Shown in pieces: positions 16,770 to 64,000 of a stretch of 64,000 bases of DNA (position 1 is the stretch's first letter; each line of letters starts with the position of its first letter). Under the pieces are notes generated by a model, which saw nothing but the letters and a program-made list of their open reading frames with translations, made no database searches and had not been told where the DNA came from. The stretch comes from Branchiostoma floridae. Lineage: Eukaryota; Chordata; Leptocardii; Amphioxiformes; Branchiostomatidae. The DNA lies in the NCBI RefSeq assembly GCF_000003815.2, contig NC_049980.1:31389470-31453469 (forward strand), written 5' to 3'. Made by a program: the position numbers and the translations under genes.

Positions 16770-19700
16770 ATGGCTGATGGAACAGCAAGACAACCACTGC
16801 CAGGTGATGAAGGCCAGCAGACTCCAGCTGAGGCTGAGAGAGAGGTACACGAACTGCAGCCTAGACAGGTGGGAAGGGGGGGGGGGGGCATTCAACTTCT
16901 CCTGTAATTGGAAGGGTGTGGGCGACAGAGCTTTTCGAGTGGCGGAAATTAATGGTAGACAGGATGTATGTTCTTAAAGCAATTTATATAGGATAGTTGA
17001 CCAGATAAAGGGAGGGGTCTAGGTTTCATTTTATTGTTGTCTTCAATCACTTATAAAAAAGATTGAAATACTAAAGCAATTAGATAAATCATGTACTATA
17101 AGCAATATCTATATTCATAGCTGTATTGAGAATCGAGAAGTTGAACCTGTACATACTAGTATATTGTATATTGTAGAATCTGAATATCTTAGGATTAACA
17201 CAGTTTCTAACTGATAAAATACGTGTGGTGGTGGTTTTATGTTTTCACTGAGAAACAATGTAAACAGAGCAAGCAAAGTTGAAAGTGAAAGTTGTATTTT
17301 GACATGTCTCAACTGTTATGTTTCACCGATAATAAAGTTTCCTTTGTAGCATCATTACTATAATTGTTCCATTTAGCACCATTTCACAAAAATTCATGGT
17401 CAAAAGCTGTGTCAGAATGGCGGTAAAATGACTATTTACAGCGCCGCTTATTGGCTAACTTGAGAGCCATTGAATACAGAGCCTGATTGTTTCATTCCCC
17501 AAAATTGGAGGTTTTAAAATTTTCCTTCCAAATGGGTATTTCGAACAGTCTGCATTATGTAGTCAGATACCACATTCTTATATGACTTCTACTTTGAGAT
17601 TTAAATTATCACCATGGTCAGGCTGGACAACAACGGCCCCAAGCACCGGGACAAGAAAACGTGGCCCAGCCGCCAGCACTGCAGATGGCTGTAGGGAAAG
17701 TAGGGGATTTTTTCGGAGGAGCGATCATCAGGATCCAGAGCCAAGCCCTCGCAGCAGCGGGCCTCGTGGGAGGCCTTGTGGCAGGATCATCTGGTGCAGC
17801 TGCGTTCGCAGCCAGCAAGGTTTGTTTGTTTGCTTGTTTATTTATTTATAGGTTTGGCTGTTCAGCACGCACAGCCAGGGCTGCCCAACAAGCCTTTGGC
17901 TATTACAAACTTTAAGGGCTAGGCTGATGCTTCTTATAATGACATATCAATTATGCAAATTGGTATCTAATTTGCATAATTAATCAGGAAATTTTCTAAA
18001 CATGCTCAGTTCTATTATAAGACCATTGCAACATTTGACATTTGTAACTGAGGAGGAGAAGAATATTGATTGATATATATCATGCAAAATAAATACCTAA
18101 TTTGCATAATTAATCAGGAAATGCTATAATTTCATTGTGGAAAATGACGGGAAGTTCTTATTTATAGCATTTAAAAGTTATGTATAGGTGAACATCGTTA
18201 AACATTAATTATCAAAATGAGGTTCTCATTTGCATAAATTATCTTAAAATGCGATAAAAGCCTTCTTTCTTAACATGGATTGTGTACGTCTGTTGTCTGG
18301 TAGAGGAGATGATTAACTGATATAATTTATGCAAATGAGAACCTTATTTGCATAATTTATTACACACAATCAACGCAGCAGTTGTAAAGGTTAAGATCAT
18401 TTGGCAAAGGTATGGGGTCGTGGAACTCTAGTTTTCATCTAAGTTGAGTGGGGAAACAGTTGTGAAGTACCATTCCCAGGGTCAAAACTTTTTTTAGGCA
18501 CTCGAACCAGCAGAATTAAGATTCTACAAGATTACCTCGTTGTCTCACAGGTTACGGATTCCCCTGGGGCCATTGTGGGAGCAGGTTTGGCTACAGGCCT
18601 GGCTACAGGAGTGACGACCCTGGCAGCCTTCTACTTGGCTAACAAGCAACAAACAGAGGAAGCCCTCCGAAGGGCGGTAGAGCGGGAACGGCACATTCAA
18701 GTAGAAGAGATAGAGGAAGGGTCACTTCTAGTGAGGGTCAAGTTTCTAACACTGGTGAGACATTGAATTGTTATCGCCATTGCAATGTGATAGTTCGACG
18801 TTTAGAAATCAGCATATACTCACATGTTGTAAATGTATGTGTTATCCATTTTCCAGCTTCTCATCAATAATTGTAAAGCACTTGGCAGTGTGTTTAAATC
18901 CACCATCACAGAGTGTCAATGACAGGGAGTCACATTCGAGAATTCATCCTTGTCACAATAATTACGTCACAGTACAACAATGAGAAAGATTATTTTGCCA
19001 GATGAAGGCAGTTAAGAGCAGCTGCCCAAACCACTGGTGGAGAAAAATATAATGTTGTGTACCTACATGTAGGAAAACTATGGTGAACTGATTTATCAAA
19101 CTATTTATTACTACAGGCTGGGTACTGGGTGATGCGCAGCTTGAACGAGAGAATCCACGCGGGGACCGACCGCACCTGTCTGCAGCTGCTACTGGAGGAT
19201 GAGCTGCAGAGGATCGGCTGGACCGGACCGATCCAAGTGGGGCTGGAGGGGTGGTGGTTTGCTGAGGAGGAGGGACAGGAGGAGGAGGAGGAGGCAGGGA
19301 TGGAGCAGGAGGAGAGATGGGAGTGGGCAGGGATGGGGGAGAAACAGGTGGGCTGAGAGGTGCTTTGTTATGATTGGATGATGAACTACTTGTATTTGCT
19401 GACTGACATTTTCTCAATATGTTTCCAAAGGAAAACATTTAGTTTTTGCTGGCCTACTGGCCTGCATTCTTTTTCTTTCTTCTGTCGTCAGCCAATCAAA
19501 GCTCAGTAGTGTAGTGTAGTGTAGGTACAAGTACCTCAGTCGACAGTGCAAACATCTATGTTGATATCTAAGGACGAGGGTTCGTGTCCCACCTTGGAAT
19601 TTTTTTATCTATTCTTCTTTTTTTCCCTCCTTTTTTTGATAATTGACTTTCAAATCAACAGCTAGCTAGCTGCCTAGTGTCCTCATTGTATTGTTCCTGT

Positions 19701-20825
19701 TGCAAATTTGGAATAAAGTCAAAGTCTAATCAATACAACAATAAGCTGTAAATAGTAAAAAGTGGGTAATGCATAAAATTAAACATATAAAACTGGTGAC
19801 TTGGATAGTAACTTAGTTAATAAATCCCCACTCTGTTTATACACTTAATATTACAGTCAGTACCAGGCAGTGTGACAACAGAAGGAGACTCAGGCCTGCC
19901 TGAAGACGTGTCCTCTGTAGCAGCCATGTCCATCTCTTCAGCTGGAGAGGTGGAGGAGGGGCCACTCAAGCCGTCCAGAGCCAGCCTACAGAAGCACAAG
20001 GACTCACCAACAGCACAACGTTACATCAAGGCCTACAGGTCCTGGGAGGAAGGAGCAGAAATCCTGACAAGTAGTGGGTACTCAGATGTGGCGGGAGTGA
20101 AGGCCTTGGTACTTGGATTCATGCAGCGTGACACAGTACCATCATATCACACAAGTACAGTACTGTATGAACAGTCATGGTTAAACCTGAATAAAGCCCA
20201 ACTGAAGAAGCTGACGATCTCCCAGCTACAAGCTGACCCCACGGACAGCACCTGTCTGCTGCTGACAGCCCTACAGCTGCCACATGGAGACAGCCGGGTG
20301 CAGACCCTGCAGCAGGTGGTTGATGCTGTCCTACAGCACGGACCTGGAGACTGGCTGTACCAACACCTGCACCACATCTACCTCTACCTGGGGTGGACCA
20401 TATGGGAGGCAAGTCCTAAGCCAAAGCCAACAATGATGTCAAAGCTTTTCAAGAGGTCTGACCTACCAACTACAAATCTGTCTGCTCTAGCCAAAGCCCT
20501 GTCTGCCATGGCGAGTTCCCTTATGTACAAACAGGACCATTTGGAGACTGTGTACTCCACAGCCCTACTGTCTAAGGAAGTGTCTGAGACAGAAGCAATC
20601 AGACAGTTGGAGCACTTCCTCAGGCTGGCACCAGAGTGTGATTGGTTTGTGCCACTTGCTCACTACCGCCTGACCACCCTGTACGGACATCAGCAGGACA
20701 GGCAGAAGGTGATTCACCACTTCACCACAGGGCAGCAGAGGGAGGCCAACAGGCTACCTGTGTTTCCTGAGGTCCCCAAACACACCAAAGATCCTGCTAG
20801 AAAGGCATATGAACAGTTTAACTGA
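16770..20825 (+). CDS. Family gene A: TRADD-N-like/TPR membrane protein, unnamed
   Basis: Five phase-0 exons: 16770-16868, 17622-17819, 18551-18754, 19117-19347, 19857-20825, predicting 566 residues. I do not recognise a named gene. What can be seen: a Pro/Gln-rich N-terminus (1-75); a Gly/Ala-rich hydrophobic segment (about 76-97) after the motif IRIQSQAL; a second with glycine-zipper spacing (about 105-129); a charged helix (ERERHIQVEEIEEG); a strand SLLVRVKFL (157-165) followed by helices and the strand PIQVGLEG, an order and hydrophobicity resembling the TRADD N-terminal domain; an acidic Glu run; and a 322-residue last exon whose final ~90 residues have TPR-like helices (EAIRQLEHFLRLAPE, HYRLTTLYG). 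The Kozak context aaaATGG and paralogue conservation support the start. The exon 2 acceptor (17620-17621) is chosen by phase. Membrane topology and the TRADD-N assignment are inference. Confidence 0.8.
17836..17923 (-). mobile_element. 3' end fragment of a non-LTR retrotransposon
   Basis: The tatttatttata tail followed by cagccagggctgcccaac matches the 3' end of the LINE at 45974-47208, in the same orientation. It is a short, dead-on-arrival copy in intron 2 of gene A. Confidence 0.65.
17930..18370. repeat. A/T-rich repeat with recurrent ATTTGCAT cores
   Basis: Four or more related units contain taatttgcataattaat or its complement, in intron 2 of gene A. Related sequence recurs at 48010-48120 and 57170-57730. 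It looks like a dispersed foldback family. The octamer-like cores are probably incidental. Confidence 0.5.
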
Positions 20826-22256
20826 TGAGTCTTTTCTGCCCAAATTACATACATGATTGCATATGGTATTTTGTGAATGTTATATCATATACATGTATGG
20901 AAGAGCTGTACACTTTCTCACTTAATATGCAAATAGTAAATTACACTATCTTACATATCACAAGTATGAAAATCCATGCCTATTAGGAATTGTCCAAGAC
21001 AGAAGCAATCAGACAGTAGGAGCACCTCCTCAGGCTGGCACCAGAGTCTGGTCTATATGTGCCACTTGCTATCTACGACCTAGTCATCCTGTATGCTAAA
21101 TGCTTGTACGATGGTTCCATGTTCTTGTAGGTGGGGAAAGGAGGTTGTTGCTGTCTTCAATTTACAGTTGAAACAATTCTGAAGTGAAGTATTACAAATA
21201 TTATTGATGGAACTGCATAAAATCTGGGTCATGACTTCGTGTTTGAAAGGTCATCACAAAAACCAACACAGATATTTCAATATCTACAGTATCATACACT
21301 GTCAGGTAAAATAATGGGAAAATGAACGAATGCCTTAAAGTTAAACAGTTCTATACCTATACATGTACATAGAGCCAATATAGAATGTGTCAACAAAAAG
21401 TTTGGAACTATCACTGTTCTACAATATGATTCGTTGATCTATCCTCTGCATTGAGTACCAATAATTCAAATACATTTCTAACCTGTGTAGTTTGCATTGC
21501 AAATTCCGAACCAAACATGTGAAATGGAAATTGTTAAGTCAGTGCAAATCAATTTTTATTACAATACAAGACAGATTTTATTCCAAACAAGAGTTTGAAG
21601 ATCTATTAGTAATACCCCCATGAAATAAGTTTCTTATATGTCTTGTTTACTTCTGGTTCATCAAGTATGAAAAATGGTTTAGATTAACATTATACATGTC
21701 CATTGATCACACACTTCTGGTCCCTCTAAAGTGACGATGACGTAGCATATGGAAAATATACAACAGTACAGTTACAAAAGCACAGTCATCAAACAGACCG
21801 AACACCTCCCCATGAATTAATAGCCCATTCCATTGACCCCAGGACCTGGAACGTTCTATCAGCTGTCAGAATGCAAATAAGCTTTAGCCTTGATAAATGA
21901 CTAATGCTACCAACACTGGAAGTCTAAAACCCCTTCCTGTCACTATCTCAAATTCCTCTTCATTTCCTGCCAATCTGTGGTGAAATGTACTTCTATATAT
22001 AACGTTATATATATCAGCCTGGCAACATACCAAAATACATTAATTTTTTAACTTCAGAAACACAGACTAACAGAAAACAATACCTCCATACATGGAAGTA
22101 ACATTACTAACACAACAATCAGTGGCAGAGATTCCATCTAACAAGTATCCCAGACTTCACATTATGATACTGGTAGCCTAGCCTATTCAGACACAATCAC
22201 ACATAATGCACAGGCAGCGCATACTAATGCTTTCTGAAGTGTTTCAACTTAATCAT
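20826..22256. other. A-B intergenic region, collinear with the C-D intergenic region
   Basis: Long stretches match 50769-52165 in order, including ctaacctgtgtagtttgca, gtcagtgcaaatcagtttt and acctccatacatgga. It holds a decayed piece of the family last exon near 20990-21100 and nothing else recognisable. Confidence 0.6.
20990..21100 (+). pseudogene. Remnant last-exon cassette behind gene A
   Basis: The start of the TPR-like cassette is visible (gacagaagcaatcagacag, then ctcaggctggcaccagag), but an in-frame TAG and divergence break it. It is preceded by tatgaaaatccatgc, as behind gene C. Confidence 0.65.
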
Positions 22257-22413
22257 TAACTACCATTTCCCGTATGTGGGGTAAAATGTGATTGACTGCT
22301 TTGCAGGTCAATGTATGTTAGCCATTGTTCCTACGCAGTTTTAGCACAGCTGGAAATTTTGCTTCAATCACCCAGGAATCTTGTGTGGTATCTGGTGAAC
22401 ATTGTGCAAGAAA
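22257..22413 (+). promoter_or_regulatory. Conserved upstream module of gene B
   Basis: tttcccgtatgtggg at 22266-22280, then a tgcaggtcaatgta element and agctggaaattttgct, in the same order and spacing as before genes A and C. Confidence 0.55.
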
Positions 22414-25400
22414 ATGGCTGATGGGACGGCAAGGCAACCACTAGCAGGTGACCAAGGACATCAGCCCCCAGCTGAGGCACAAGAAGAACTGCAGCCTGCT
22501 GGACAGGTGGGGAGGGGGGCATTCGAGTTTTTCTAGAAACAAGTACTTTCGAAAAAGTTGGCATTATGGCAGCAAAGTTGCTATGAACATTATTCACATT
22601 CCTGAACAAGACTAATAAAAGTGACTATCAAATATTTTAGTTGAATGTTAACAAAATGTCCCAAAGCTGGGTTTCAAAATGAAGATCTTCGATTAGCAAG
22701 ATTTAAGAATTATGTTGAATGAATGTTTCAAAAGACTACATTAGAAACAGTCACATGGATGGGAGTGGCACCTCTGACATACTGTTCCCCATACAGAAAC
22801 TTTATCGACTGCGCTACATGCTAGCGTTAGGATTTTAAAGTGATATTGTGCGTTTACACCGGCCACGTACAGTAACATTAAAGAATAAACATTTGCGATG
22901 GTCCTAAAAAGTGCCACATTCCTGAGCAAGACTTATTAAGTATGAACATGTATATCAAATGGATTTTTAAAACAGAAAAAAAATGAGACTAAGGCAATTT
23001 TAGATTTCAGCTCCTCTTAGGAAAACAAGATACCATATATTTTCAAAATAATATACCATAAAAATTCTAAAAACAATTAGAGTGTCATTCATCAATCCAT
23101 TTACTGCAGTGGCAAGAAATGTCATCACTATGAGCCAACAAGTCTTTTACTGCTGTGATTAAGAGTCTAGTAGACTAGCATCACTTATCAAGTCAGAAAC
23201 TACACTCAAGGCTACCAAAGAGGTGTCACTTCTACAACTAAGCAACTAGTTTTGCTTCTACAACTGTTACACTGCATGTGCAGTCATGGCTATTTCACTA
23301 GTGTAACCTCTACAACTACACTCATGGCTACCTCACAAGTGTCACTTTTACAAGACAATTAAGGATATTTTTCCATTTTGGTATTTTGTCATCATGTTGA
23401 CCATCTCCTGAATGAGACAATGTCTTTTTCTTTTTTTAAATATTGAGCGTGCAGATGTCATCCATGCCATCACCTAGTACTGTGATACATGGAACAATGC
23501 TTTGCCTTTCATATGATTGTAGTTGTTAAAATCGTTGTGCTATATGCATGTACTTTGACTTCAGGCTTTGCAGCCTGGCGACCATCACCATGGACAGGTA
23601 GGCCAACAGGTGCCCCAGGCTCCGGGACAAGGAAACCAGGCCCCACCGCCAGCTGTGCAGATGTCTGTAGGTGCTTTCGGTGGAGCGACCATCCGGATAC
23701 AGGATCAAGCCCTTGCAGCGGGAGGCCTCGTGGCTGGAGCTTCTACTGCAGCTGCACTTGCAGCTGGCAGGGTTTGTTTTTGTCATTTTGTTTTGTTTGT
23801 TTCTTTGGCATAGCCAGTAAACTGCCAGGTTTGTAAAGTAAGTTCATCTGCATCAGACTAGACTGTAAGGTTTGATCTACTCACACCTGGATGGAACCCT
23901 ACTATTTTCAAGAAGTGCGTTGGGTTCTTAAACATGCTCAAGGCTCTCCTCCAACATGGGACTTCTAGCTTTACATGTATGTCCCATTCAAGAAGACGTC
24001 CCTAACTAAAGATGGAAGGCATTTTTCCCCATGAGTCAAGTAGGGAAATAGGTGCACAACTTTGAGGCCTTCTAACTTAAGGATTCAAACCCTGAACCTT
24101 TAGATTCTAAGTCAACAAACCTAACTAAACCTAAACCACCTTGCAATCTTTAAGGTTACAGACTCTGCTGCAGGAGTTGTAGGAGCAGGCCTGGCTGCAG
24201 GAGTGGCAACAGGATTTACCACCCTGGCAGCTTTCTACTTGAGATACAGGCAAGAAACAGAGGAGGCAATACGCCGGACGTTGGAGCGGGAACGACATAT
24301 CGAGCTAAAGAAGATAGAGAAAGGGTCGCTTCTGGTGCAGGTCAAGTTTCTAACACTGGTGAGACACAGTACAATATGAAACTTTTCTCATTGCATTGTC
24401 ATTGCCATATTGAGCACATAGTGATTGGGGCACCCACTTTGGTTTGACTAGCTCTGCCCAGCTGTAAGGATATTGTCAGCGCCACGGGTGTAAAATATGT
24501 ACAAATTCATATTATCACTTCATTTTGTTTATTCTTGTTTTTCTGCACTATGCTTTATTGGTCATCTTATACACCACCAGTCCACCACCAGCCACACTAA
24601 GGCACAATCTGCACTCCTCCATGCATAAAGAAAAAAATTAAAAGCTTTATTTCTGTTCACTTTTTCCCCAGGCTGGGTACTGGGTGATGCGCAGCTTGAA
24701 CGAGAGAATCCATGCGGGGACCGACCGCACTTGTCTGCAGCTGCTGCTGGAGGATGAGCTGCAGAGGATCGGCTGGACCGGACCAATCCAAGTGGGGCTG
24801 GAGGGGTGGTGGTTTGCTGAGGAGGAGGGACAGGAGGAGGAGGAGGCAGCAGGGCCGGAGCAGGAGGAGAGATGGGAATGGGCAGGGATGGGGGACAAAC
24901 AGGTGTGCTCACAGATGCTTTCATTCTATATTTTCCTTATGAACTACTGTAAATAAGTTCGCGGGGATTTAATTTCGGGGTATCGGGAAAAGGGACTGGT
25001 CGCAATGGTTTTAATTTAACAGTAGCACCATGCACTGTAGTCTCTTACTGCCATGGAAAAAATGTTCACAGTGGTTTTAAGTTTGTGGCATAAAACCACT
25101 GCGAACATTTCTGCATTTACAGTATGCATTTGCTAACTGATGTTTTGCTTAAAACTGATTTGCAAATCAATAGAACCATTGGCTGTAAATAGTCAAAAGG
25201 ATTATAATTAATTCATACAATATAAACTGATCACAGTGTCTTGGATAGTCAGAGTACTTATTTTGTCACTTTGTTTACACTTATATTACAGTCAGTACCA
25301 GCGAGTGAGACAACAGAGGGAGACTCAGGCCTGCCTGAAGACGTGTCCTCTGTAGCAGCCATGTCCATCGCTTCAACTGGAGAGGTGGAGGAGGGGCCAC

Positions 25401-26266
25401 TCAAGTGGGCCAGAGCCAGGCTACAGAAGCACAAGGACTCACCAACAGCACAACGTTACATCAAGGCCTACAGGTCCTGGGAGGAAGGAGCAGACATCCT
25501 GACCAACAGTCGGTACTCAGACATGGGGGGAGTAACAGCCTTAGTACTGGGATTTATGCAGTATGGCATGGTATCACCAAGTTTCACAAGCACACTACTG
25601 TATGGACAGTCATGGTTGAACCTGAATAAAGCCCAACTGAAACAGCTGACGATCTCCCAGCTACAAGCTGACCCCACGAACAGCACCTGTCTGCTGCTGA
25701 CAGCCCTACACCTACCAAACGGAGACAGCCGGGTGCAGACCCTGCAGCAGGTGGTTGATGCCGTCCTACAGCACGGACCTGGAGACTGGCTGTACCAACA
25801 CCTGCACCTCATCTACTGCTACCTGGGGTGGGCCATATGGGAGGCAAGCCCTCAAAGCCCTCAGCCAAAGCCATCAATGATGTCAAAGCTTTCCAAGAGT
25901 GACATACCAAATACAAATCTGCCTGCTCTAGCCAAAGCCCTGTCTGCCATGGCTAGTTCCCTTATGTACAAACAGGACCATTTGGAGACTGTGTACCATA
26001 CAGTTGTACTGTCTAAGGAAGTGTCTGAGACAGAAGCAATCAGACAATGGGAGCACTGGCTCAGATTGGCACCAGAGTGTAATATCCGTGTGCCACGTGC
26101 TCACTACCACCTGGCCACCCTGTACGGACATCAGCAGGACAGGCAGAATGTGATTCACCACTTCACCAGGGGGCAGGAGACTGAGGACACGAGGCTACCT
26201 GGGTTCAAAGAGGTCCCCAGAGTCATCAAAGATCCTGCTAGAAAGGCATATGATCATTTTAACTGA
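22414..26266 (+). CDS. Family gene B: TRADD-N-like/TPR membrane protein, unnamed
   Basis: Exons 22414-22506, 23565-23771, 24155-24358, 24672-24902 and 25292-26266, all phase 0, predict 569 residues with no breaks. The layout is that of gene A: MADGTA start, GATIRIQDQ followed by a Gly/Ala hydrophobic segment, second hydrophobic segment with AGLAAGVATG, TRADD-N-like strand SLLVQVKFL, GWTGPIQVGLEGWWF, acidic Glu run, then the long C-terminal exon ending RKAYDHFN. Residues that differ from A in exon 3 (RYRQETEEAIRRT, LKKIEKG) make this the most divergent membrane/charged-helix exon of the set. Two extra last-exon cassettes follow. Gene B aligns best with D, and A with C, in flanking DNA. Function is unknown. 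The gene lies wholly within the c-d intron of GANP copy 1, on the other strand. Confidence 0.82.
24945..25124. mobile_element. MITE with tactgtaaat ends, intron 4 of gene B
   Basis: The element starts tactgtaaataagttcgc and ends gcgaacattt...atttacagta, forming inverted termini. The core agtagcaccatgcactgtag is shared with the copy at 49102-49296. Confidence 0.6.
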
Positions 26267-26424
26267 GGGCCCTCTCTACCCGGATTACATATTGTATTGT
26301 GGAAATCCTATCCTATGGCAGAATTCAATTTTGACATTTCATAACCCATGCAAATGACTTCCAAATCTAGTAATTACATATCTCTACAATGTCACAACTA
26401 AAAACCCAACCTGCCTAAGGACGG

Positions 26425-26670
26425 TTTCTGAGACAGAAGCAATCAGACAGTTTGAGCACTTCCTCAGGCTGGCACCAGAGTGTGATGTCTGTGTGCCTGA
26501 TGCTCACTACCACTTGGCCATCCTGTACGGACATCAGCAGGACAGGCAGAAGGTGATTCACCACTTCCCCAGGGGGCAGCAGACGGAGGCCAGCAGGCTA
26601 TCTATATTTGCTGAGGTCCCCAGATATGTAAAAGATCCAGCTAGAAAGGCATATGAACATTTTAATTGAT
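26425..26670 (+). pseudogene. First extra TPR-like last-exon cassette behind gene B
   Basis: About 80 codons stay open and match the last quarter of the gene B terminal exon (VSETEAIRQFEHFLRLAPE ... ARKAYEHFN, stop). The upstream three quarters are missing. No initiator or strong acceptor precedes it, so it is probably a tandem-duplicated gene end. An alternative terminal exon cannot be excluded because the frame is undamaged. Confidence 0.6.
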
Positions 26671-26800
26671 GTTTTTTCCTGCCGAAAATTCCTATCCTAT
26701 GGCAGAATTCCATTTCCACATTTCATCACATCTGCAAGTGACTTCCAAATTTAGTAAAATACATTATCTAATTAGTATGTCACAAGACTTAGTATGAGAA

Positions 26801-27064
26801 TCTAAGCTGTTGAAGGAAGTGTCTGAGACAGAAGCAATTAGACAGTTTGAGCACTTCCTCAGGCTGGCACCAGAGTGTGAGTTCTATGTGCCTGATGCCC
26901 ACTACCACCTGGCCACCCTGTACGGACATCAGCAGGACAGGCAGAAGGTGATTCACCACTTCACCAGGGGGCAGCAGAGGGAGGCCAACAGGCTACCTGT
27001 GATTCCTGAGGTCACAAGATTTATCAAAGATCCTGCTAGAAAAGTATACGAGCATTTCAACTGA
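26801..27064 (+). pseudogene. Second extra TPR-like last-exon cassette behind gene B
   Basis: A second intact copy of the terminal segment (KEVSETEAIRQFEHFLRL ... ARKVYEHFN, stop) lies about 390 bp further on. The spacer shares ggcagaattccatttc...gacttccaaat with the preceding unit and with the region behind gene D. The sequence tctaag just upstream could act as a weak acceptor. Confidence 0.6.
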
Positions 27065-29013: not shown

Positions 29014-29789
29014 CTTAACACCAGTGCCAATAGCACACTGGATGGCGGCAACGTAAACTCGGACCATTCCATTGAGTTTTTAAAAAACTAGGTGCTCCCG
29101 GTCTGTATGATACTGACAAGGTAATTATTTGCTTGTGTGCTGAAGGAAAATCGCATAGAGGATGACAACTTGGATTGATTAAATTCCACCTTTATTTCAT
29201 CTTCCTGTGTGTTTGTGCTTTGTGTTTGTTTTTGGGCCGCCCCAGTCTAATCTCTTGGTTCATTAACAAGGCCTGCTTCATTCTTACTGATTTAAAAAAT
29301 GTCCATGTTTTGGAACCATTAAATGGTTGAAGAAAATCTTAGATACATGTATCAAAATGTTGCCATTGATAACGCACTTAATGTTTAATTTTAGTCTCCG
29401 TTGTCATTTAGTTGCGTAGTCTTATCTGTATAGACTGACAGTACTTAGTAGTAGTAATGTTCAAAACTAAAGAAACATTAAAAAAGCTTAGCATGCCTCC
29501 TTCGAGGCTCTTGCAACATTTGGATCTATCACAGGATTCCTGTTTTGTACTTTTTCTCAAGTTTTCTCTTACTAGTATTTCCTGGACAAATCCAAGAAAT
29601 TAAATTGCTGTGCCCTTTTTCTTCACAAAGCGGACAATATTTCATATAATGTACAGGCATGTAGTTTTCTTTGAACAAGAGAAATCACTGAACTTTTCTT
29701 TTATAATCTTCTAAATGAAAATTCATCAGAAAATTCTATTCTTCCACTGTTTGCACATACTGTACATACTGAATGAACTAATTCATTAC

Positions 29790-30570
29790 CTTAGGCAAGG
29801 GTCACATTTCCAAACCAGTGCTCAGCCAGAGTTTGTGGGAATGAAACATAAAAGTGTCTAATACAGAAATGCTTGTGAATAATTCTTTTTCTTTAATCTA
29901 AATTGTGTTTTCTTGTCTTTTATATCATTTATATCAATTATTCCCACCAACTACCTGACCAGGCCCCAGTTTGGCAATGTGAACCCAGCATAACAGTGAA
30001 CATTTAATGGTTGTGGCTGAACCCTTTATAAAACTCTGTGGAGTAAAATCCTATAACCAGTGATAACTTTCATGAGTACTGGAAGTGTTTAGCTTGGAAG
30101 TCCCCCATGTCCAACAGTGAGTTCAGTCTAAGCTCCGACAAGCGGAAGTTTCTCTTCCCGGCAATGATTCTCCATCAAAGCTCCTCCACTGCCTTAGACA
30201 AGGGTCACATTTCCAAACCAATGCCCAGCCAGGGTTTGTGGGAATGAAACATAAAAGTGTCTAATGCAGAAATGCTTGTGACACCTTTTTTTCTTTAATC
30301 TTAATGTGTTTTCTTGTCTTTTACATCATACCTTTCATTCCCACCAACTGCTCGACTGGGCCCCAGTTTGCAAATTTTACCCATTCATTGCAGAGAACAT
30401 TTCATGGTTGTGGCTGAACCCTTTACAAAACTCTGGAGTAAAATCCTATACCCAATGATGAATTTCTTATGAGTACTGGAAGTGTTTAGCTTGGAAGTCC
30501 CCCATGTCCAACAGTGAGTTCAGTCTGAGCTCCGACAAGCGGAAGTCTCTCTTCCCGGCAGCGATTCTCC
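29790..30570. repeat. Tandem duplication of the GANP last-exon region
   Basis: About 395 bp repeats twice: 29790-30180 and 30185-30570 share ggtcacatttccaaacca, atgaaacataaaagtgtc and gagtactggaagtgttt. The copy nearer 30.1 kb keeps only the tail of the final coding exon (about 30075-30180), with substitutions. The complete exon is at 30467-30667. Confidence 0.65.
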
Positions 30571-33500
30571 ATCTCAACTCCTCCAGATTCTCCTCCAGGG
30601 ACAGTCTCCGGGGCTGGGCGGTCAGATCCAGGAGGTCCGGACCGGGGGGGCTCGCTGGTTGTTCTCTCTGGAAGGAGAAAGATATTTAAGGGGGTACATT
30701 TTAGAATCAATGTTTTAGTATTAGGAGTCCTCTCAATACCACCCTGCAGACTTTATCACAACTTTTCTATTTTATAATCCGTATCAAACTTAACTTTCTG
30801 GAAGGAGAAAGATTATGGGGGTACATTTTAGAATAAATGTTTTAGATTAATATTATAAGATATGCCTTCAAGTACCAGTGTTACCAACCTAGGATTGATG
30901 TGGTCAGATATTCATATTTTCTCTCTATGATAGAGTGGAACTTGTTATCACCAAGCACAGTAGGGCCATCTTTGCTCGATGCTTGCAGCTAGATGTGCAA
31001 AAGTTACGTTTGACAGGTTGCTCAGTAACCAGCTACTGCCACGATTAAAAAGCTGGTGTGTTACACCTAGAGGCTGTTAAACCAGCAATATAGATGCAGA
31101 CACAGACAAGTCCTCACAATTTCTCAATGTCACAATCTGTATGCCTGTACTTAACCGGTTGATATCATCATCATTAAAAACACAATGGAGTAACACCCAC
31201 CATGTCCTCTGGTGAACTGAAAGGAGAGACCCCTGGTGGCTGATGCTGGTACTGCCCATCCTCCACATAAACCTGGAGCCAGTCTTCATAGCTGGAGAGA
31301 CGATCAGAAAAAAACATCGGAAGGGAAGCTTGACAACATTTACCAGTACAGGTACAAAACTGAACCTGAAGCAGCTAATCTTCAAAGTGATAGTGAAAGT
31401 GATCTCAAACCAGTTTTAGCTCACTGAAGAGCTAATCTTCCACTGGTCGTGACAGAGGACAGATGCATTGTACAGTATTTACAGGTTCATTGTACCGGGG
31501 AAATTCCCCTAGCTCTTTACGACAAGCACAATGAACCAGTGGACCACGGCTTAACATCCCATCCTAAGGACTGCAACCCTTTCCGGTTGCGTGCATGTTG
31601 GGTGAGTGACACAGCTGGAATCAAACTCACGGCTTGTAGGTCCAGAGGCAGGGCCTCTAACCACTGGACTACGCATGCTACCATATACACGCTTCAACAC
31701 AAAGGTCATGTGAACTGTACATTGTCAGACTGTCTTCCAGGGCCTACACAGGCCAGCACATCTGCTTTCGTTGAGGGCATTCTGGCAATGGAGCCCAGAA
31801 GCTGGCCTGTGTGGGCCATGGAAACAGCCTGGCTCTGGGTCTAACTCAAGAAGGGCTGTGGTAATAGCTCATTGCGGGTATGTTGGCCATAGAGCCAAGG
31901 AGCTGGCTTGTGTTGGCCCTGGAAACAGTCTGGCATACAGGCTATACCTCTGATGGTATTTCCTGTCGTTTACAGATCAGGTACAGTACATTGTAGGTAG
32001 TAACAGGCATAATATACATATACTGGAGTCAGACAGCATGGGAAAAACTTCTGGGTAGCCGCAGTGGATCGGGTGGCAGGGAAGAAGTTTTTTGTTTGAT
32101 TTGTTTGTTTGAACTCATTGTTGGAGTGGCACCTGACATAAGTCAAGTAAGTCATACAATTAATGTACATTTGTATCAGACATCAATGCTGTACTACAAT
32201 GTAGTAAGTGCTGAACACAAGATTTATAGATCACCTTTTTGTCTGCACCCTCTCCTGAGCAATTTTTTTCCTGAGTTCCTCAGCCTTCCTGATGAGTGCC
32301 GACACTGCAGGGGACAACTTGTCCTCCAGTTTCAGATTTCCATCTAACGGGGAGAACCACTCAGTGAAATATGAAAGTCACCTCAAACAAATTAGAGCTG
32401 GTCGTGACAGAAGACGGACACTACATGTTGTATGATTTGAGTTCTTAGTAAAAATCATGCAAATGAGATCAAGCAACACTGTTGTTAGTTTACAGGTGAT
32501 TCATTCAACAACATTCAATCCCTGAGAAGCAAAATTACATCTACATTGGGTATGAATAATTCCATTGTTAACTGATATGGACAATGTCATGTAGGCTAAT
32601 CTCCAAGCAGATCTTACAGCAGCACAAGATAGTATCAAAAGCTGGCAGAGGAGTAAAGCTGGCTTGGGAGTGTGTTTCGCTACAAGGCAAATGGACACCT
32701 TTTGGCTGACTACACTTCTTGGCCAGTTTGGTACTATTCTATGCCATTGTAGGATCTGCTTGGAGATTACTAGTAGGCCACTGACCTGTTGTGTCTGCTG
32801 TAACAGTATCTATGGTCTCCACTCTAGACAGCTCCTGATGTTTCTTCCTCACACTCTGCTGTGTTGCTACAACCAAACTGTACAGGCATGCAAAACAACA
32901 GTTATGCCAACACACACCATTGAAACATAAACAGGGCATACTTTCTATGAATTGTATTGGAGTTGGCATTGACACATTCACACATAATGTTAAGGTTAAC
33001 AAAACATCAAGGTTTTTGAACGTTATATATGAGATATGTAGCAGCATGAAGTCCAGTTTACCTGTGTGGCTGTTCCAGGACCTCAGCTGAAGTGTTCCCG
33101 ACCGCAGCCCTCCACTCCGGGGGCTGGGTGAAGCCTGACAGCTCCTCGGGGAGGTAGTGTACAGTCAGCACACTGCCGTCTGGGGGAGTAACAATGGAAG
33201 GGCCATTCTGTTAAATAAGTTTACTTGTTTTTAAAAACATGGCATTAAGTGCTAATATGAAGATGAAACCACTAGCGTCAACATGATATCCTTGAAAAAA
33301 CAAACAAAACCATACAGACATAGGTTACCCTGCGGATAAAGATTAACTAGCTATAATTTTCTAACGACATTTTGGTGACTGCCTGACCTTCCTCTGGACA
33401 AAGCTGATTAAGTTTATATGCCCCGTCATCACGGTTCACTTGTAGGATTAAAGTGAAGTGAATGAATAAATATAAAAATCTACTCCAGTCACAAAAAGTG

Positions 33501-45182: not shown

Positions 45183-45973
45183 ATGGCTGATGGAACAGCA
45201 AGACAACCACAGCCAGGTGCTGAAGGCCGGCAGCCCCAACCTGAAGCTGGGATGGAGGCACAAGGAGAACTGCAGCCTGGACAGGTGGGGGAGGGGGGCA
45301 GGCAGCCTGTGGTGCATGGACAGACTGGCCAACTGGTGCCCCAGCCTCCAGGACAAGGTAACCAGGCCCAACAGCAGGTAGCACTTATACAGCAGGGACA
45401 TCTGGTGCCCCAGGTTCCAGTACAAGGCTACCCGATCCCACAGCTGACACCACAGTTCCCTCAGCAGGCTGCACCCATGCAGCTGTACCACCCCAGTCAG
45501 CAGGGCTACGGTGCTCCAACAGCCATGATATATCCGTACCAGGGCTACCTCATGGCTCCCCAACCAGCTGGGCACTACAACGTCCCACCTGTAGGTGCAA
45601 GCGTTAGTCAGCCGTCATCAGTTCTGCAGACGCAAGTGTATGCAGGCCAAGGGCCAGGGGGTGTTTTTGGTGGAGCGACCATCAGGATTCAGGATCGAGC
45701 CATTGCAGCGGGAGGCCTTGTGGCTGGAGCTGCAGCTGCAGCTGCATTTGCCGCTGGCAAGGTTTGTTTGTTTCATATAACCCTTAAACTGCCTTTTAAG
45801 GTGTAACACACCACTTTTGTACAGTAAGTACAAGCTGCATAATTATGACACTCAGCCTGAGTTCTAGCTAGTGCACTTTTAGCGTAACGGGCCATCATGC
45901 TATAAATAGTATAATTTGCAACCACCACGCTAAAATCTCAGAGAACTACTTGCGTAGTAGTACTTTGCTAGTA

Positions 45974-47208: not shown

Positions 47209-47688
47209 ACTTTGCTAGTACACTGTATTTACCTCCCGAACAAAGTCTGATCAAATTTGAAAAATGATGATATGCCACTCCAAACTGGTCAAAAATTCCT
47301 TCAAGTTACAGAAGTAAATCCTCTCATGGGTAGAATGCCAACATTTTGCAAGGGCCAAGACCCCCTTCCACACCATCCCTTTGTTTGGCCGCTTTGCTAC
47401 CTTGCCAATTTACCATTCGCTAAAATAAAATTCTGGCTACAACCCTGCTACATGCAAAACATGGTTTGATTCACTCTCACCGAGATGGACCCCTACTATT
47501 TTCACGTGTGGTGGGTTATCATACAATAATCACACACAGTGAGTCCAATTCAAAATAATGTCTCTAGCTGGAGCTAGCTAGACACTCATTTTCAGAGTCA
47601 AGTAGGAAAAAACATAAAAGAAGTGACTTTTCCATTGAGGCTCAATGACTCAAACTCAAAACCTTCAGATTATCAGTCAACAAACGTA

Positions 47689-48561: not shown

Positions 48562-49101
48562 AACATCAACAAGACCACCTTGCTACCTTTCACTTTTTTT
48601 CAGGTTGCAGAGTCCCCTGCAGCCATTGTAGGAGCAGGCCTAGTTGCAGGTGTGGCTACAGGTCTTACAACACTAGCAGGTTTCTACATGGGCAACAAGC
48701 AACAAACAGAGGAGGCCATCCGCAGGGCGGTGGAGCGGGAACGACATGTCCAAGTGGAGGAGATAGAAGAAGGGTCGCTTCTAGTGCGGGTCAAGTTTCT
48801 AACACTGGTAAGACGTCACAGAAGAAGATGTAAGTTTTTTCATTGAATTGTTACTGCCCTCGCAATTTTATGCTAGTTTGATGCGTAGTTTTAGCATGCA
48901 TTATATTCATGATCAAAATCATGTTGCATATCTTGTTTTTCTTGTGTTTAACAGCTATGAAAATCACCATCATAAAGTGTCAATTTAAAAGAGAAGTCAC
49001 AATCGAGAACACCTCCTTGCCATGATAAACACTTCACAATATGGCATCCCAATGAAGGCAGCAGAGTAGCTGACAAAACCATTGGTTGAGAAAAAAATTG
49101 T

Positions 49102-49296: not shown

Positions 49297-50999
49297 TCTA
49301 GGAAAACTAGACTACATTGAACTGATTTAACAACCAGATGAAAATATTTCACTGTCACTCTGTCACCAGGCCGGGTACTGGGTGATGCGCAGCTTGAACG
49401 AGAGAATCCACGCGGGGACCGACCGCACCTGTCTGCAGCTGCTGCTGGAGGATGAGCTGCAGAGGATCGGCTGGACCGGACCGATCCACGTGGGGCTGGA
49501 GGGGTGGTGGTTTGTTGAGGAGGAGGGACAGGAAGAGGAGGAGGCAGCAGGGACGGAGCAGGAGGAGAGATGGGAGTGGGCAGGGATGGGGGACAAACAG
49601 GTGGGCTGAGAGATGCTTTTGTTCTGATTTTTCTTATGAACCTACTTATTTGTATTTGCTGACATTTTTCTCACCAACAAGTAAGTAAGTAGGTAATAAC
49701 TGACTATCAAATCAACAGCGAGTGTCCACATTGTCCCTGTTGCAATTCGAATAATGTCAAATTCAAATCAATACATTCAACCATATTAAGCTGTAATAGT
49801 CAATTCATATGACATATAAAACTGGTGACTTGGATATTTAGAGCAGTTGATAATGTCCCACTCTGTTGATACACTTGTATTACAGTCAGTACCAGCCAGT
49901 GTGACAACAGCGGGAGACTCAGGCCTGCCTGAAGACGTGTCCTCTGTAGCAGCCATGTCCATCTCTTCAGCTGGAGAGGTGGAGGAGGGGCCACTCAAGT
50001 GGCGGAGAGCCAGGCTACAGAAGCACAAGGACTCACCAACAGCACAACGTGAGATCAAGGCCTACAGGTCCTGGGAGGAAGGAGCAGAAATCCTGACCAA
50101 CAGTGGATATTCCGACATGGCGGGAGTCATGGCCTTGGTACTGGGATTCATGCAGGATGACACGGTATCACCAGATGGCACAACTACAGTACTGTATGGA
50201 CAGTCATGGCTGAACCTGAACAAAGACCAACAGAGACAGCCGGGTGCAGACCCTGCAGCAGGTGGTTGATGCCGTCCTACAGCACGGACCTGGAGACTGG
50301 CTGGACCAACACCTGCACCACATCTACTGCTACCTGGGGTGGGCCATATGGATGGCAAACCCTCACCCAAAGCCAACAATGACATCAGAACTTTCCAAGA
50401 GTGACATACCAAATACAAATCTGTCTGCTCTAGCCAAAGCCCTGTCTACCATGGCGAGTTCCCTCATGTACAAACAGGACCATTTGAACACTGTGTACTT
50501 CACAGCCGAGCTGTCTAAGGAAGTGTCTGAGACAGAAGCAATCAGACAGTTTGAGCACTACCTCAGGCTGGCACCAGAGTGTGATCTCTATGTGCCTGAT
50601 GCTCACTTCTACCTGGCCACCCTGTATGGACATCAGCAGGACAGGCAGAAGGTGATTCACCACTTCACCAGGGGGCAGCAGACGGAAGCCAACAGGCTAC
50701 CTGGGTTTGTTCAAGTCTCCAGATCCATCAAAGATCCTGCTAGAAAGGCATATGCACAGTTTAACTGATGGACTTTTCTGCCCACATTGCATATAATGTA
50801 TATTGTATTCTGTGGAAATCCTATCCTATAAGAAAGAATTCCATTTCAACACATCCAAATTCAGTAAATTATATATTATAGATAGAGAATTATATATATA
50901 TAATTTATAATCTATAGAAAGAGAATTTATAGATTAGAGATATGTAATTGTACATTATCATAGTAAAAACATGTTCATCTAACATATCACATTATGAAA

Positions 51000-52318: not shown

Positions 52319-55300
52319 ATGGCTGATGGGACAGCAAGGCAACCACAACCAGGTGCTGAAGGCCAGCTGCCCCCAGCTGACACTGAGATAGGAGCACAAG
52401 AACTGCAGCTGGGACAGGTGGGGGAGGGGGGCAGGCTTCTACAGGTAAGTGCATTTTAGCTATAAGGCATTGAATATCACTTGCAACCATCATGCTAAAT
52501 TGAGGACCATTATGCTTATTTTCAGCTATAGTGTAATGCTCATTAGAAGTTTAATGTCAGGTCAAATGTAAAAATCTTGATATGACCCTATTACGATGGA
52601 CAACCAAGAACCATGTAGCATGGGTATCCTCGGGTATCATTGGAATGATGACTTCATACTTTCAATTTTCATAATTTTCTAACTTACAGTGAAGTGCCAT
52701 GCCTCTCCTTCCATATCAACCTCCTATCACTGTATTCAGTTAATTTAGTTGCTTTAGTTTGCTCCTTTGCCATTACCATTATATGTACTATTTAAAACAT
52801 TAAGAAAGAACTAAATCAACGCATGATCAAGTGTAAGACTAGTCTGCAACATTATCCAAGGCAGGTAGACAAAATGATGTTTAATGTACATAGTATGTTA
52901 TGTCCCAACTCAATCTCTGTGTATCTACATGTAAATGCAACATAATGTAGCTGTATAGTAGACATACAACACCTAATTATGTCTTCCATCAATATTTTAA
53001 AGCTTAGAATCTACAGAGTATGATTGTGTAGAGTGTATTTCAATTATCTTTAATGTAACCTAAGTCAGTCTTTGTCTTACATTGTACCTGGTACAATTAT
53101 TGTACAGCATGGGGACCATCATGGGCAGGCAGACCTACCAGCACCCGAGGTTCCAGGACAAGGTTACACCCCGGTCCCACGGCAGCCACCACAGTTCCCT
53201 TTGCTGTACCACCCCGGTCAGCAGGGCTACAGCACCCACACACATCCACACCCATACATGTACCAGGGCTTCCCCATGGCTCCCCACCCTGCTGGACAGG
53301 TGCATCACAACGTCCCACCTGCGGGCCTAGCACCTGCAAACACTGGTCAGTCGCCAGCTCTGCAGGTGTCTGTAGGTGCTTTTGGTGGAGCGACCATCAG
53401 GATCCAGAGCCAAGCCCTCGCAGCAGGAGGCCTTGTGGCTGGAGCATCTGCTGCAGCTGCCTTCGCAGCCAGCAAGGTCGGTTTGTTAGCTTGTTTATTT
53501 ATAAACCACTTTTGTACCAACTACAACCTACCATTAAAACTGGACTGTGCAATTTGATCCAGTCCCACATCGTGTATCACCTTCTGTGAGGAGAGCGGAG
53601 GGTTCTGCTTGAGATGTGCCTCTCCTCAAACATGCATAGGACCTTCTTTACGTTCCATCTGAGAGCCTCCGGACATAATCCCTAATCAAATCTGGGTACT
53701 CATTTTCACCAATCCATATGGGGAACAGGTGTTAAGTGCCTTTCAAAACAAGGGTGCTAGGGATTCATACGCAAATCCCAATAATAATCCTAACCAAAAG
53801 TCCACCTTGCCCCCACTAAGGTTGCAGACTCTGCCTCAGGTGTGGTAGGAGCAGGTCTGGTTGCAGGTGTGGCTACAGGAGTGACAACCCTGGCAGCTTT
53901 CTACATGGGCAACAAGCGAGAAACAGAGGAGGCAATCCGCAGGGCGGTGGAGCGGGAACGACATGTTCAAGTGGAGGAGATAGAAGAAGGGTCACTTCTT
54001 GTGCGAGTTAAGTTTCTAACACTGGTGAGTGGTACCCTCAGGCACTGAAGAATATCAAAGTTATATCATTGGATTGTTATTGCCATTGCAATATAATAGC
54101 TTGTATCAATCTGCATATATTCACATGCTACATATTTTACTTGTTTCTTATTATTATCGACAGTATGTTAATCACTCGAGTTCAACAGCTATCAAAACCC
54201 ACCATCACAGAGTGTCAAGAAGACATTATAGTCCCTTTCGAGAACACGTCCTTGTCTAATAAATTTACTTCCTAATACATAAATAGTACATACATAACCT
54301 TTAGTTTGACTTGATGGCCCTGTAGGTCAAAGCCACTTTATCCAGTGTAAGGGGGTACTGGAAGGAGAAAGATCATTTTGACCGATGAAGGCAGCAGAGC
54401 AGCTGACCAAACCATTAGTTGAGGAAAAAAAAAGGTTTTGTACCTAGGAAAATTGATTTTATCGACCAGATGAAACCATGATCTATCCCTATTTCCCAGG
54501 CTGGGTACTGGGTGATGCGCAGCTTGAACGAGAGAATCCACGCGGGGACCGACCGCACCTGTCTGCAGCTGCTGCTGGAGGATGAGCTGCAGAGGGTCGG
54601 CTGGACCGGACCGATCCAAGTGGGGCTGGAGGGGTGGTGGTTTGCTGAGGAGGAGGGACAGGAGGAGGAGGAGGAGGCAGCAGGGATGGAGCAGGAGGAG
54701 AGATGGGAGTGGGCAGGGATGGGGGACAAACAGGTGTGCTTATTATCCTTTTTTTTGATATAATTTGATAGCATTTTTATGTCATACATGGGCTATGATA
54801 ACATTTGATATTGGTGTTCAAGACCAGTCTTCTATCTATCACAAGGGCTCCCATTTCATTAATTTGAAAAATGAATTTGGGCACTTGAATCTATATTCTC
54901 ACAATTTTTTTTTTTCAGGACCCCATATTCTCACAATTTTAGCAGATTTTGCATTGAAATGTGAGTTTGAGTGGCTATGCCATAAAAAGAACAGACCACA
55001 GTGTATTCTGCATTAAACTTGGTCACGTTGCTCTTCAGCCATAGTGGCAATTCAACCCATGGTAGGCTCTATTACTTGTAATTAGATTTCCTAACTGACG
55101 TTTTTTTTCTTACTAACAAATAAATAGACTAGAAGTATTAGCACCAATAAGTGAATACAATACATAAAAGTGAAGATTTGAACAGTAAGAGCGGTTATCA
55201 ATAATTCCCCCTCTATTTATAGTCAGTACCAGCCAGTGTGACAACAGAAGGAGACTCAGGCCTGCCTGAAGATGTGTCCTCTGTAGCAGCCATGTCCATC

Positions 55301-56191
55301 ACTTCAGCTGGAGAGGTGGAGGAGGGGCCACTCAAGCGGTTTAGAGCGATCCTACAGAAGCACAAGGACTCACCAACAGCACAACGTCACATCAAGGTCT
55401 GCAGGTCCTGGGAGGAAGGAGCAGGCATCCTAACCAACAGTGGGTACTCAGACATGGAGGGAGCTAAGGCCTTGGTACTGGGATTCATGCAGCGTGACAT
55501 GGTACCACCAAGTTTCACAAGTACTATACTGTATGACCAGTCATGTTTAAACCTGGATAAAGCCCAACTGAAACAGCTAACGACCTCCCAGCTACAAGCT
55601 GTCCCCACGGACAGCACCTGTCTGCTGCTGACAGCCCTACAGCTGCCAGATGGAGACAGCCGGGTGCAGACCCTGCAGCAGGTGGTTGATGCCATCCTAC
55701 AGCACGGACCTGGAGACTGGCTGTACCAACACCTGCACCACATCTACTGCTACCTGGGTATTGCTATATGGCAGGCAAGCCCTCAGCCAAAGCCAACAAT
55801 GACGTCAGAACTTTCCAAGGAAACTGACCTGCCAATTACAAATCTGCCTGCTCTAGCCAAAGCCCTGTCTGCCTTGGCTAGTTCCCTTATGTACAAACAG
55901 GACCATTTGAATACCATGTTCATCACAGCCGAACTGTCTAAGGAAGTGTCTGAGACAGAAGCAATCAGACAGTTGGAGCACTACATCAGCCTGGCACCAG
56001 AGTGTGATTACTATGTGCCACGTGCTCACTACCACCTGGCCATCCTGTACGGACATCAGCAGGACAGGCAGAAGGTGATTCACCACTTCACCAGGGGGCA
56101 GCAGAGGGAGGCCAACAGGCTAACTGGGTTCGGTGAGGTCCCCAGACATGTAAAAGATCCAGCTAGAAAGGCATATGAACATTTTAATTGA
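52319..56191 (+). CDS. Family gene D: TRADD-N-like/TPR membrane protein, unnamed
   Basis: Exons 52319-52444, 53108-53476, 53821-54024, 54500-54733 and 55223-56191, all phase 0, give 633 residues. This is the longest complete member that keeps the exon 1-2 intron. Exon 1 reads through the A/B donor position and uses a later GTAAGT. Exon 2 adds a Pro/His/Tyr-rich linker (GYSTHTHPHPYMYQGF) before GATIRIQSQAL and the first Gly/Ala segment. The second segment (GAGLVAGVATGVTTLAAFY), the charged helix, SLLVRVKFL, GWTGPIQVGLEGWWF and the acidic run follow, and the last exon ends RKAYEHFN. TPR-like helices are clear at the end (EAIRQLEHYISLAPE; HYHLAILYGHQQD). The function is unknown and the domain reading is as for gene A. 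Confidence 0.82.
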
Positions 56192-56304
56192 TGTTTTTTC
56201 CTGCCGAAAATTCCTATCCTATGGCAGAATTCCATTTCCACATTTCATCACATCTGCAAGTGACTTCCAAATTTAGTAAAATACATCAATATAATTACCT
56301 AACA

Positions 56305-60996: not shown

Positions 60997-61096
60997 NNNN
61001 NNNNNNNNNNNNNNNNNNNNNNNNNNNNNNNNNNNNNNNNNNNNNNNNNNNNNNNNNNNNNNNNNNNNNNNNNNNNNNNNNNNNNNNNNNNNNNNN
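60997..61096. other. Assembly gap
   Basis: Exactly 100 N. The size is likely a placeholder. Confidence 0.98.
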
Positions 61097-63614: not shown

Positions 63615-64000
63615 ATGGCAGATGGGACAGCAGGGCAACCACGGCCGGGTTCTGAAGGCCAGACTCCCCCTCCTGACCTTGAGATGGAAGCACAAGCACT
63701 GCAGCCTGGACAGGTGGGGGAGGGGGGCAGGCAGCCTGTGCTGCATGAACAGACTGGCCAACTGGTGCCCCAGGCTTCAGGACAAGGTAACCAGGCCCAA
63801 CAGCAGGCACCACCTGTAAACCATGGACAACTGGTGACCCAGATTACAGGACAAGCCTACCCGATCCCACAGCAGGCACCACCTTTGCAGCATGGCGACC
63901 ACCACTATGGACAGACAGGAGCACTGGTGCCCCAGATTCCCGTACAAGGCTACCCGATCCCACAGCTGACACCACAGTTCCCCATGCAGCTGTACCATCC
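63615..64000 (+). CDS. Family gene E, 5' part, continues past the window
   Basis: The frame is open from ATG 63615 to the last base: MADGTAGQP, then VGEGGRQPV and repeated LVPQ, YPIPQ and PPxxHG motifs. As in gene C, the position used as exon 1 donor in A and B is read through (CAG GTG GGG GAG), so exon 1 and the Pro/Gln linker are fused. The linker is already longer than C's at the same point. Upstream sequence matches the family module only loosely (agtttcccgtttgcagg near 63466). The membrane and later exons lie outside. Confidence 0.75.
   Translation, partial: MADGTAGQPRPGSEGQTPPPDLEMEAQALQPGQVGEGGRQPVLHEQTGQLVPQASGQGNQAQQQAPPVNHGQLVTQITGQAYPIPQQAPPLQHGDHHYGQTGALVPQIPVQGYPIPQLTPQFPMQLYH

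Follow-up and report, generated by a model that had tools for sequence, protein, structure and literature searches.

Here we describe a gene family of the amphioxus Branchiostoma floridae that is tandemly arrayed in a window of 64,000 nucleotides, the whole stretch of DNA analysed (C2:31389470-31453469 of the 513-Mb assembly; C2 and similar labels denote contigs). Its members share one architecture, in which a constant module resembling TRADD-N precedes a C-terminal exon of helical appearance, and in two separately expanded clusters matched positions of this exon are under focal diversifying selection. From these features we infer the fold, the ligand and the immune role of the family: it is probably a lineage-specific, tandemly expanded set of recognition receptors, likely to be intracellular, which would pair a constant TRADD-N-like adaptor with a diversifying TPR-like helical sensor and most likely serve innate defence or non-self recognition. 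The original prediction, made from the DNA sequence, spoke of a lineage-specific immune scaffold. The term 'receptor-like' fits better, given the diversifying selection on the C-terminal exon, which did not figure in that prediction.

A family with a shared architecture

The window contains four five-exon paralogues on the forward strand, beginning at positions 16770 (copy A), 22414 (B), 45183 (C) and 52319 (D). Five paralogues with one exon order had been predicted. The fifth has exon 1 alone inside the window, its exons 3 and 4 lying just past the end (C2:31455239 and C2:31455795), and copy C is frameshifted: a stretch of its exon 5 is missing and the frame changes near 50235, which truncates the protein. 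Exons 3, 4 and 5 follow each other in the same order in all four paralogues, with GT/AG junctions in phase 0, whereas the exon 1/2 boundaries of the window copies are approximate and in copy C these two exons form one open stretch. The SLLVRVKFL and PIQVGLEG motifs, the acidic run and the helical-looking C terminus all lie where they had been placed. The Pro/Gln-rich stretch of varying length, by contrast, had been described as a tail and is in fact N-terminal (exons 1 and 2). A degenerate DNA pattern for PIQVGLEG (at most two mismatches) occurs four times in the window; 100 shuffles average 0.03 occurrences.

Two genome search lists, one obtained with the spliced module (40 matches) and one with a C10-type module (34 matches), both counts being lower bounds, were merged into a family of at least 34 loci: 16 on C10, 7 on C2, 4 on C14, 3 on C15, 2 on C3, and 1 each on C4 and C17. 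Beyond these, C136 and C177 carry fragments, and C10 has one additional partial piece. The same architecture recurs in the C10, C14 and C15 clusters. In the copies read, a Pro/Gln-rich or Ala-rich start leads into a short strand-like x-L-x-I stretch and a hydrophobic or linker stretch. The module then runs helix-like, beta-(G/D)S-beta, helix-like, beta, and is followed by an acidic or Glu-containing linker, after which the TPR-like exon comes wherever a downstream exon is readable. In the C10, C14 and C15 copies read, the module is free of the intron that interrupts it in the window copies, and the exon 3/4 junction assigned to the latter is thereby supported. A single genome scan for the module in prokaryotes, made with its C15-type version, gave 363 pattern stretches and no confirmed instance. 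We found no description of the family in the titles and the starts of abstracts of papers returned by full-text searches on amphioxus, the supplementary files of which might list members.

Diversifying selection at matched positions of exon 5

The ratio of non-synonymous to synonymous substitution rates (dN/dS) between pairs of copies is 0.75-0.85 in exon 5, as against 0.12-0.45 in exon 3 and 0.12-0.51 in exon 4, these last two being below 1 in 12 of 12 pairwise comparisons. In the exon 5 alignments, columns with four to eight residue types stand between invariant columns. Sites were tested with a self-written site model (M1a versus M2a). Under M2a, 11.1% of the 322 codons in seven C2-type copies have a dN/dS of 6.3 (twice the log-likelihood difference, 2dlnL, 139.9), as do 10.7% of the 316 codons in eight C10 copies at 10.3 (2dlnL 160.4). 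Star trees give 161.6 and 216.1, respectively, and the two halves of the exon tested apart give 56.9 to 92.8, with the fast class at 5.0 to 14.5. Exon 5 is under strong position-specific diversifying selection, as would be expected of receptors whose targets keep changing. With the same code, simulations reached at most 2.9 under near neutrality and 19.5 under heavy recombination (four segments, permuted tips; 12 runs each), compared with 158.4 for the real C10 data.

The C2-type set comprises neither copy C (frameshifted), nor the copy at 31372735 (which matches residues 1-220 only), nor the C4 copy (which ends at the locus edge); it does include a C136 copy from a small scaffold that may duplicate another locus. 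The C10 set represents 8 of 16 loci, three of them incomplete at the locus end (L031, L036 and L037). Left out were L033 (exon 5 outside the locus), L043 (masked), L044 (linker repeated) and five further C10 loci, together with the C14 copy L034.

Among 282 columns shared by the two alignments, 22 and 21 are selected in the respective clusters and 13 coincide, where 1.6 would be expected (hypergeometric P = 9e-12). In exon 5 of copy D these residues are F40, H56, S97, F98, D143, I234, E237, Y263, Y264, R267, H271, G304 and H309. Several lie 3-4 residues apart, in stretches resembling the first helix of TPR units, a spacing that fits one helix face. C2-type and C10 copies separate in a tree built without the selected sites; C15 sits on the branch leading to the C2 type. 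The shared columns are therefore unlikely to stem from recent exchange between clusters.

The module, by contrast, is under purifying selection (dN/dS 0.24 in 6 copies and 0.25 in 10, with fast classes at 1.0 and 1.5). Its 2dlnL values, 17.3 for the C2 type and 5.5 for C10, were not read as positive selection, their fast classes being only 1.0 and 1.5; a value of 17.3 with the class at 1.0 means that the simpler model was not fully optimised. Site-specific positive selection in the putative ligand-binding domain is thus found next to a constrained signalling-type part, both being features of the functional class proposed here. At fast codons the third position often seems fixed, which had raised the idea of targeted mutation of the diversity-generating retroelement type. 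It was set aside because third positions vary more in fast codons (12 of 18 in the C2 type, 9 of 20 in C10) than elsewhere (82 of 280 and 54 of 285).

Exchange between copies and terminal cassettes

Synonymous divergence (dS) is 0.04-0.14 in exon 4 and 0.13-0.15 in exon 5, but 0.34-0.77 in exon 3 of the same genes. This inequality makes exon 4, and also exon 5, look homogenised or more recently exchanged, and the copies have likely exchanged sequence. Two additional open copies of the end of exon 5 (cassettes 1 and 2; Table 1) lie after copy B, contained in a tandem unit of 395 nt (26306-27064); both stay open until a stop at the homologous position. From the stop codon onward, 98 nt of cassette 1 match copy D without a difference. 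Their coding parts differ by 14 non-synonymous and 4 synonymous codon differences among 81 codons (dN 0.096, dS 0.097). An identical flank combined with equal dN and dS indicates exchange of the flank, and not selection, within that pair. Alternative splicing of the cassettes was considered: the window contains no match to the donor GAGGTGAGTGA, nor was a convincing acceptor tract seen, hence duplication or conversion is preferred. Our idea is that the cassettes might act as gene-conversion donors.

Such observations would also be expected of ordinary duplicated scaffolds under relaxed constraint, the hypervariability of which would be noise, misalignment or recombination: the copies are in tandem, copy C is frameshifted, exon 4 looks homogenised, and dN equals dS between cassette 1 and copy D. 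We nevertheless hold this account to be very improbable, since the fast class lies at 5.0 to 14.5 in all exon 5 fits and not at 1, since simulated heavy recombination stays at or below 19.5 when the real value is 158, and since identical columns are selected in two clusters. Misalignment is further disfavoured by the conserved columns interleaved with the fast ones.

The constant module and its relation to TRADD-N

Passages of Kaur et al. 2021 (PMC8195603) place a Tiny-Ser turn, occasionally with Cys, between strands beta2 and beta3 of TRADD-N; in TRADD this turn contacts a partner. In the family, a Ser preceded by Gly or Asp is invariant in all 14 aligned members and in 12 of 12 members of a second alignment, at the equivalent place in a strand order deduced from sequence alone. 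Profiles were compared with an amphioxus DEDD2-like set (A4; 17 sequences of 77 matches), an amphioxus NCOA6-like set (A3; 8 sequences of 67, plus human TRADD in a sequence identical to 1f3v) and a bacterial set from cyanobacteria (A5; matches in 14 of 20 genomes, 21 loci). Of the bacterial loci 16 were used, L180, L184, L188 and L189 being near others and the frame of L190 not having been recovered.

Against the union of all TRADD-N sets the family scores 24.2 (P = 7.5e-4, probability 25%, from shallow profiles without secondary structure), and its Ser turn falls on the Gly-Ser turn of the union in the register beta2-(Gly-Ser)-beta3-alpha2. Omitting one clade from the union gives scores of 22.7 to 24.8; none of 400 column-shuffled families reaches 24.2, and the reversed family scores 8.2. 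Accepted clades scored in the same leave-one-out manner give 38.7 (DEDD2-like), 24.3 (human TRADD), 16.2 (bacterial) and 9.2 (NCOA6-like). Ser turns also coincide in the separate comparisons with the bacterial set (P = 0.0042) and the DEDD2-like set (P = 0.011 to 0.036). When the known sets were compared with one another, P was 1e-4 for DEDD2-like and human TRADD, 0.071 for bacterial and DEDD2-like, 0.077 for bacterial and human TRADD (out of register) and 0.4 for DEDD2-like and NCOA6-like. At this profile depth the family resembles TRADD-N roughly as much as several accepted clades resemble one another, which supports homology without proving it; we regard such homology as plausible. Matches of the module to DUF559, MatE, VIT1, KleA and other Pfam entries were discarded as below cut-off where shown and inconsistent (at most 4 of 14 members).

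Hydrophobic segments in a subfamily

The module had been predicted to follow a membrane hairpin of two Gly/Ala segments. Kyte-Doolittle hydropathy (19-residue windows, threshold 1.3), applied to 21 copies with others such as L041 outside, detects two hydrophobic segments in six of them (A, B, C, D and the C4 and C17 copies), one in nine and none in six, on hydropathy only. The predicted pair therefore exists as hydrophobic sequence in C2-, C4- and C17-type copies, and two conserved transmembrane segments are not found family-wide. Because the other 15 copies have one segment or none, the hairpin cannot define the family; it is a feature of the C2-like subfamily only. No leader was seen by eye in exon 1, which starts MADGTA...

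These segments could make the proteins membrane-pore effectors, the Gly/Ala hairpin oligomerising and perforating membranes once the TPR-like sensor is engaged. Mean hydropathy is 1.5-1.9 in both segments of all six two-segment copies, GxxxG spacing is visible by eye in the second, and membrane perforation is named as a cell-death output in passages of PMC8195603. Such hydropathy is only moderate, however, and the other 15 copies have one segment (nine copies) or none (six). We consider a pore-forming family unlikely.

Evidence against a TRADD-N-like receptor

A number of findings weigh against the receptor reading. The Pfam TRADD-N models PF09034, PF13820 and PF20694 match none of the family's loci, either in genome searches or in hmmscan of spliced modules from 14 members; in the same genome PF13820 matches 67 other places and PF20694 77. 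Taken one by one, the profile comparisons are weak (P 0.0042 to 0.12). With human TRADD, P is 0.09 to 0.1; the strand aligns in register, but the Ser of TRADD itself comes three residues before that of the family. With the NCOA6-like set plus human TRADD, P is 0.12, out of register. One of the 400 shuffles comes near the score for the union (22.4 versus 24.2; the next is 17.2). The predicted resemblance to TRADD-N is thus borne out by the merged profile and its shuffles but not by the three Pfam models or by the NCOA6-like set alone. Searches of the PDB with the module and the TPR-like part gave non-significant matches only, and no death-fold or enzymatic domain exceeds the Pfam cut-off in the stretches scanned. 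As to the predicted TPR-like end, the C terminus does look helical, but the TPR label comes from copy D, the one member of nine scanned with a TPR_2/TPR_1 match, which is below threshold (E 0.035-0.072), and tandem 34-residue repeats above cut-off were not found. Our codon program holds FastTree branch proportions fixed and is not PAML, and exchange between copies inflates the selection tests somewhat. Finally, some copies (6 of 21) have no hydrophobic stretch.

Several of these points would be explained if the module were a different small alpha/beta domain, not homologous to TRADD-N and for example RRM-, ACT- or acylphosphatase-like, that converged on a beta-Gly/Asp-Ser-beta turn. The silence of the Pfam models, a P value derived from shallow profiles without secondary structure, the NCOA6-like set out of register and the offset of TRADD's own Ser all agree with convergence, and ACT and similar domains have the same fold as TRADD-N (passages of PMC8195603). 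Homology is favoured by the match of the Ser turn to that of the DEDD2-like and bacterial sets and by a score against the union that lies within the leave-one-out scores of the accepted clades (9.2 to 38.7). Convergence is in our judgement a substantial possibility, if not the probable one, and the receptor reading would stand under it.

Features of the window

The exons and cassettes in the window are listed in Table 1. A reverse transcriptase fragment (RVT_1, E 6e-14) occupies 46627-47214 on the reverse strand, opposite to copy C and between its exons 1/2 and 3. Two fragments matching MCM3AP_GANP, also on the reverse strand, lie before the cluster (2898-3236, E 5e-8) and within it (42599-42904, E 5e-11) and likely represent a segmental duplication. 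A complex tandem repeat array (35049-36321, units of about 85 and 155-170 nt) and a two-copy tandem unit of 397 nt (29789-30585) are also present.

Table 1 Features of the gene family in the window (all positions are those of the window)
Feature	Position	Strand	Remarks
Copy A exon 1: start MADGTARQPLPG..., Pro/Gln-rich	16770..16868	+	tblastn; donor CAG/GTGGGA (exon/intron); end approximate
Copy A exon 2: Pro/Gln-rich end, GG-x-IRI strand-like stretch, hydrophobic segment 1	17598..17819	+	start approximate
Copy A exon 3: hydrophobic segment 2, helix-like stretch, IEEGSLLVRVKFLTL	18551..18754	+	
Copy A exon 4: helix-like stretch, GPIQVGLEG, acidic run	19117..19347	+	
Copy A exon 5: hypervariable TPR-like C-terminal domain, stop	19857..20825	+	
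Terminal-unit relic 3' of copy A, internal stop	20987..21097	+	
Copy B exon 1	22414..22518	+	end approximate
Copy B exon 2	23559..23771	+	start approximate
Copy B exon 3	24155..24358	+	
Copy B exon 4	24672..24902	+	
Copy B exon 5: hypervariable TPR-like domain, stop	25292..26266	+	
Cassette 1: last ~83 residues of exon 5, open, stop	26418..26669	+	
Cassette 2: last ~85 residues of exon 5, open, stop	26807..27064	+	
Copy C exons 1+2, one open stretch: Pro/Gln-rich part, hydrophobic segment 1	45183..45761	+	
Copy C exon 3	48604..48807	+	
Copy C exon 4	49370..49600	+	
Copy C exon 5	49886..50269	+	open to 50269; homology goes on in another frame to 50768
Copy D exon 1	52319..52435	+	end approximate
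Copy D exon 2	53144..53476	+	start approximate
Copy D exon 3	53821..54024	+	
Copy D exon 4	54500..54733	+	
Copy D exon 5: hypervariable TPR-like domain, stop	55223..56191	+	
Fifth copy exon 1	63615..64000	+	interrupted by window end

Discussion

According to passages of Kaur et al. 2021 (PMC8195603), in animal conflict proteins, those of amphioxus included, TRADD-N tends to link a constant part with a variable one. The Branchiostoma DEDD2/TRADD and NCOA6 clades treated there resemble the family in placing a small module of alpha/beta type, marked by a Gly-Ser(Cys) turn, between constant and variable regions, in their large lineage-specific expansions and in their variable C-terminal repeats, as in amphioxus DED-TRADD-N-WD40. 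The family, which those passages do not describe, differs in having no Pfam match to TRADD-N or DED in the stretches scanned, in the hydrophobic stretch that precedes the module in many copies, and in a variable part that is TPR-like, with focal positively selected positions, instead of WD40. In the same genome we observed a large cluster of NCOA6-type TRADD-N exons (C17:18299498-18904146), which is probably the reported Branchiostoma expansion, and a cluster of DEDD2-type TRADD-N exons (C215:527215-718059) with very constant C-terminal and variable N-terminal halves.

Bacterial TRADD-N conflict proteins of filamentous cyanobacteria (L180-L200) likewise have a central module with an IE-x-GS or similar inter-strand motif. 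By eye, their N-terminal parts are DNA-binding-like or caspase-like and their C termini consist of pentapeptides, and neither a Gly/Ala hairpin nor a hypervariable TPR-like domain was noticed. Vertebrate IFITs are an expanded TPR family linked to the interferon response (passages of PMC3688568). Pfam and PDB searches gave no IFIT match to the family. To our knowledge, IFITs have no N-terminal adaptor module.

Fungal NOD-like receptors (NLRs) with TPR, ANK or WD repeats (Dyrka et al. 2014, PMC4986451) combine, like the family, conserved repeats with a few positively selected positions. In passages of that paper the selected positions are concave in TPR models, concerted evolution is suggested, and a role in recognition is proposed. 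The amphioxus proteins differ in belonging to an animal genome, in having no NACHT/NB-ARC-type domain by Pfam and in their degenerate repeats, those of fungal NLRs being near-identical tandem units. The fungal families with selected concave-side sites also contain incompatibility genes (passages of PMC4986451), and the same signatures of selection are expected of allorecognition and fertilisation proteins. The amphioxus family might accordingly serve recognition other than immunity to microbes, its fast positions telling self from same-species non-self in allorecognition or between gametes. This appears quite improbable to us, as the proteins look intracellular (the MADGTA... start without a visible leader), which suits cytosolic sensing over surface allorecognition, and as the link to TRADD-N points to defence and cell death.

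For the receptor reading we envisage the following mechanism. The C-terminal helical domain would use its fast positions to bind varied, fast-changing ligands, such as pathogen or other non-self molecules. Binding may free or re-orient the TRADD-N-like module, which could then recruit or assemble a signalling complex around the conserved Ser turn. In the window copies the Gly/Ala hairpin may anchor the protein to a membrane or perturb that membrane. The output would be of the cell-death type, coupled to innate defence or non-self recognition. More tentatively, and with somewhat less than even confidence, we suggest that the family constitutes an undescribed germline repertoire of cytosolic receptors in a cephalochordate, in which a TRADD-N-like core carries a TPR-like sensor hypervariable within each cluster and cassettes serve as conversion donors that swap recognition residues. 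Such a repertoire would be an animal counterpart of the variable-repeat conflict receptors of fungi and bacteria.

Invertebrates have no antibodies, and we know of few animal receptor families beyond the leucine-rich repeat, immunoglobulin and lectin types in which the exact recognition positions can be read from sequence. In the present family the selected residues can be named, recur in two separate expansions and lie beside a module resembling an adaptor of TNF-receptor death signalling, so that direct tests of the ligand surface, the ligand and the signalling output become possible. Conflict receptors of this general kind are already known; what is new is the diversifying TPR-like sensor on a constant module. 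If the receptor reading is true, it would extend the TRADD-N principle of a constant core plus a variable sensor to a new type of sensor.

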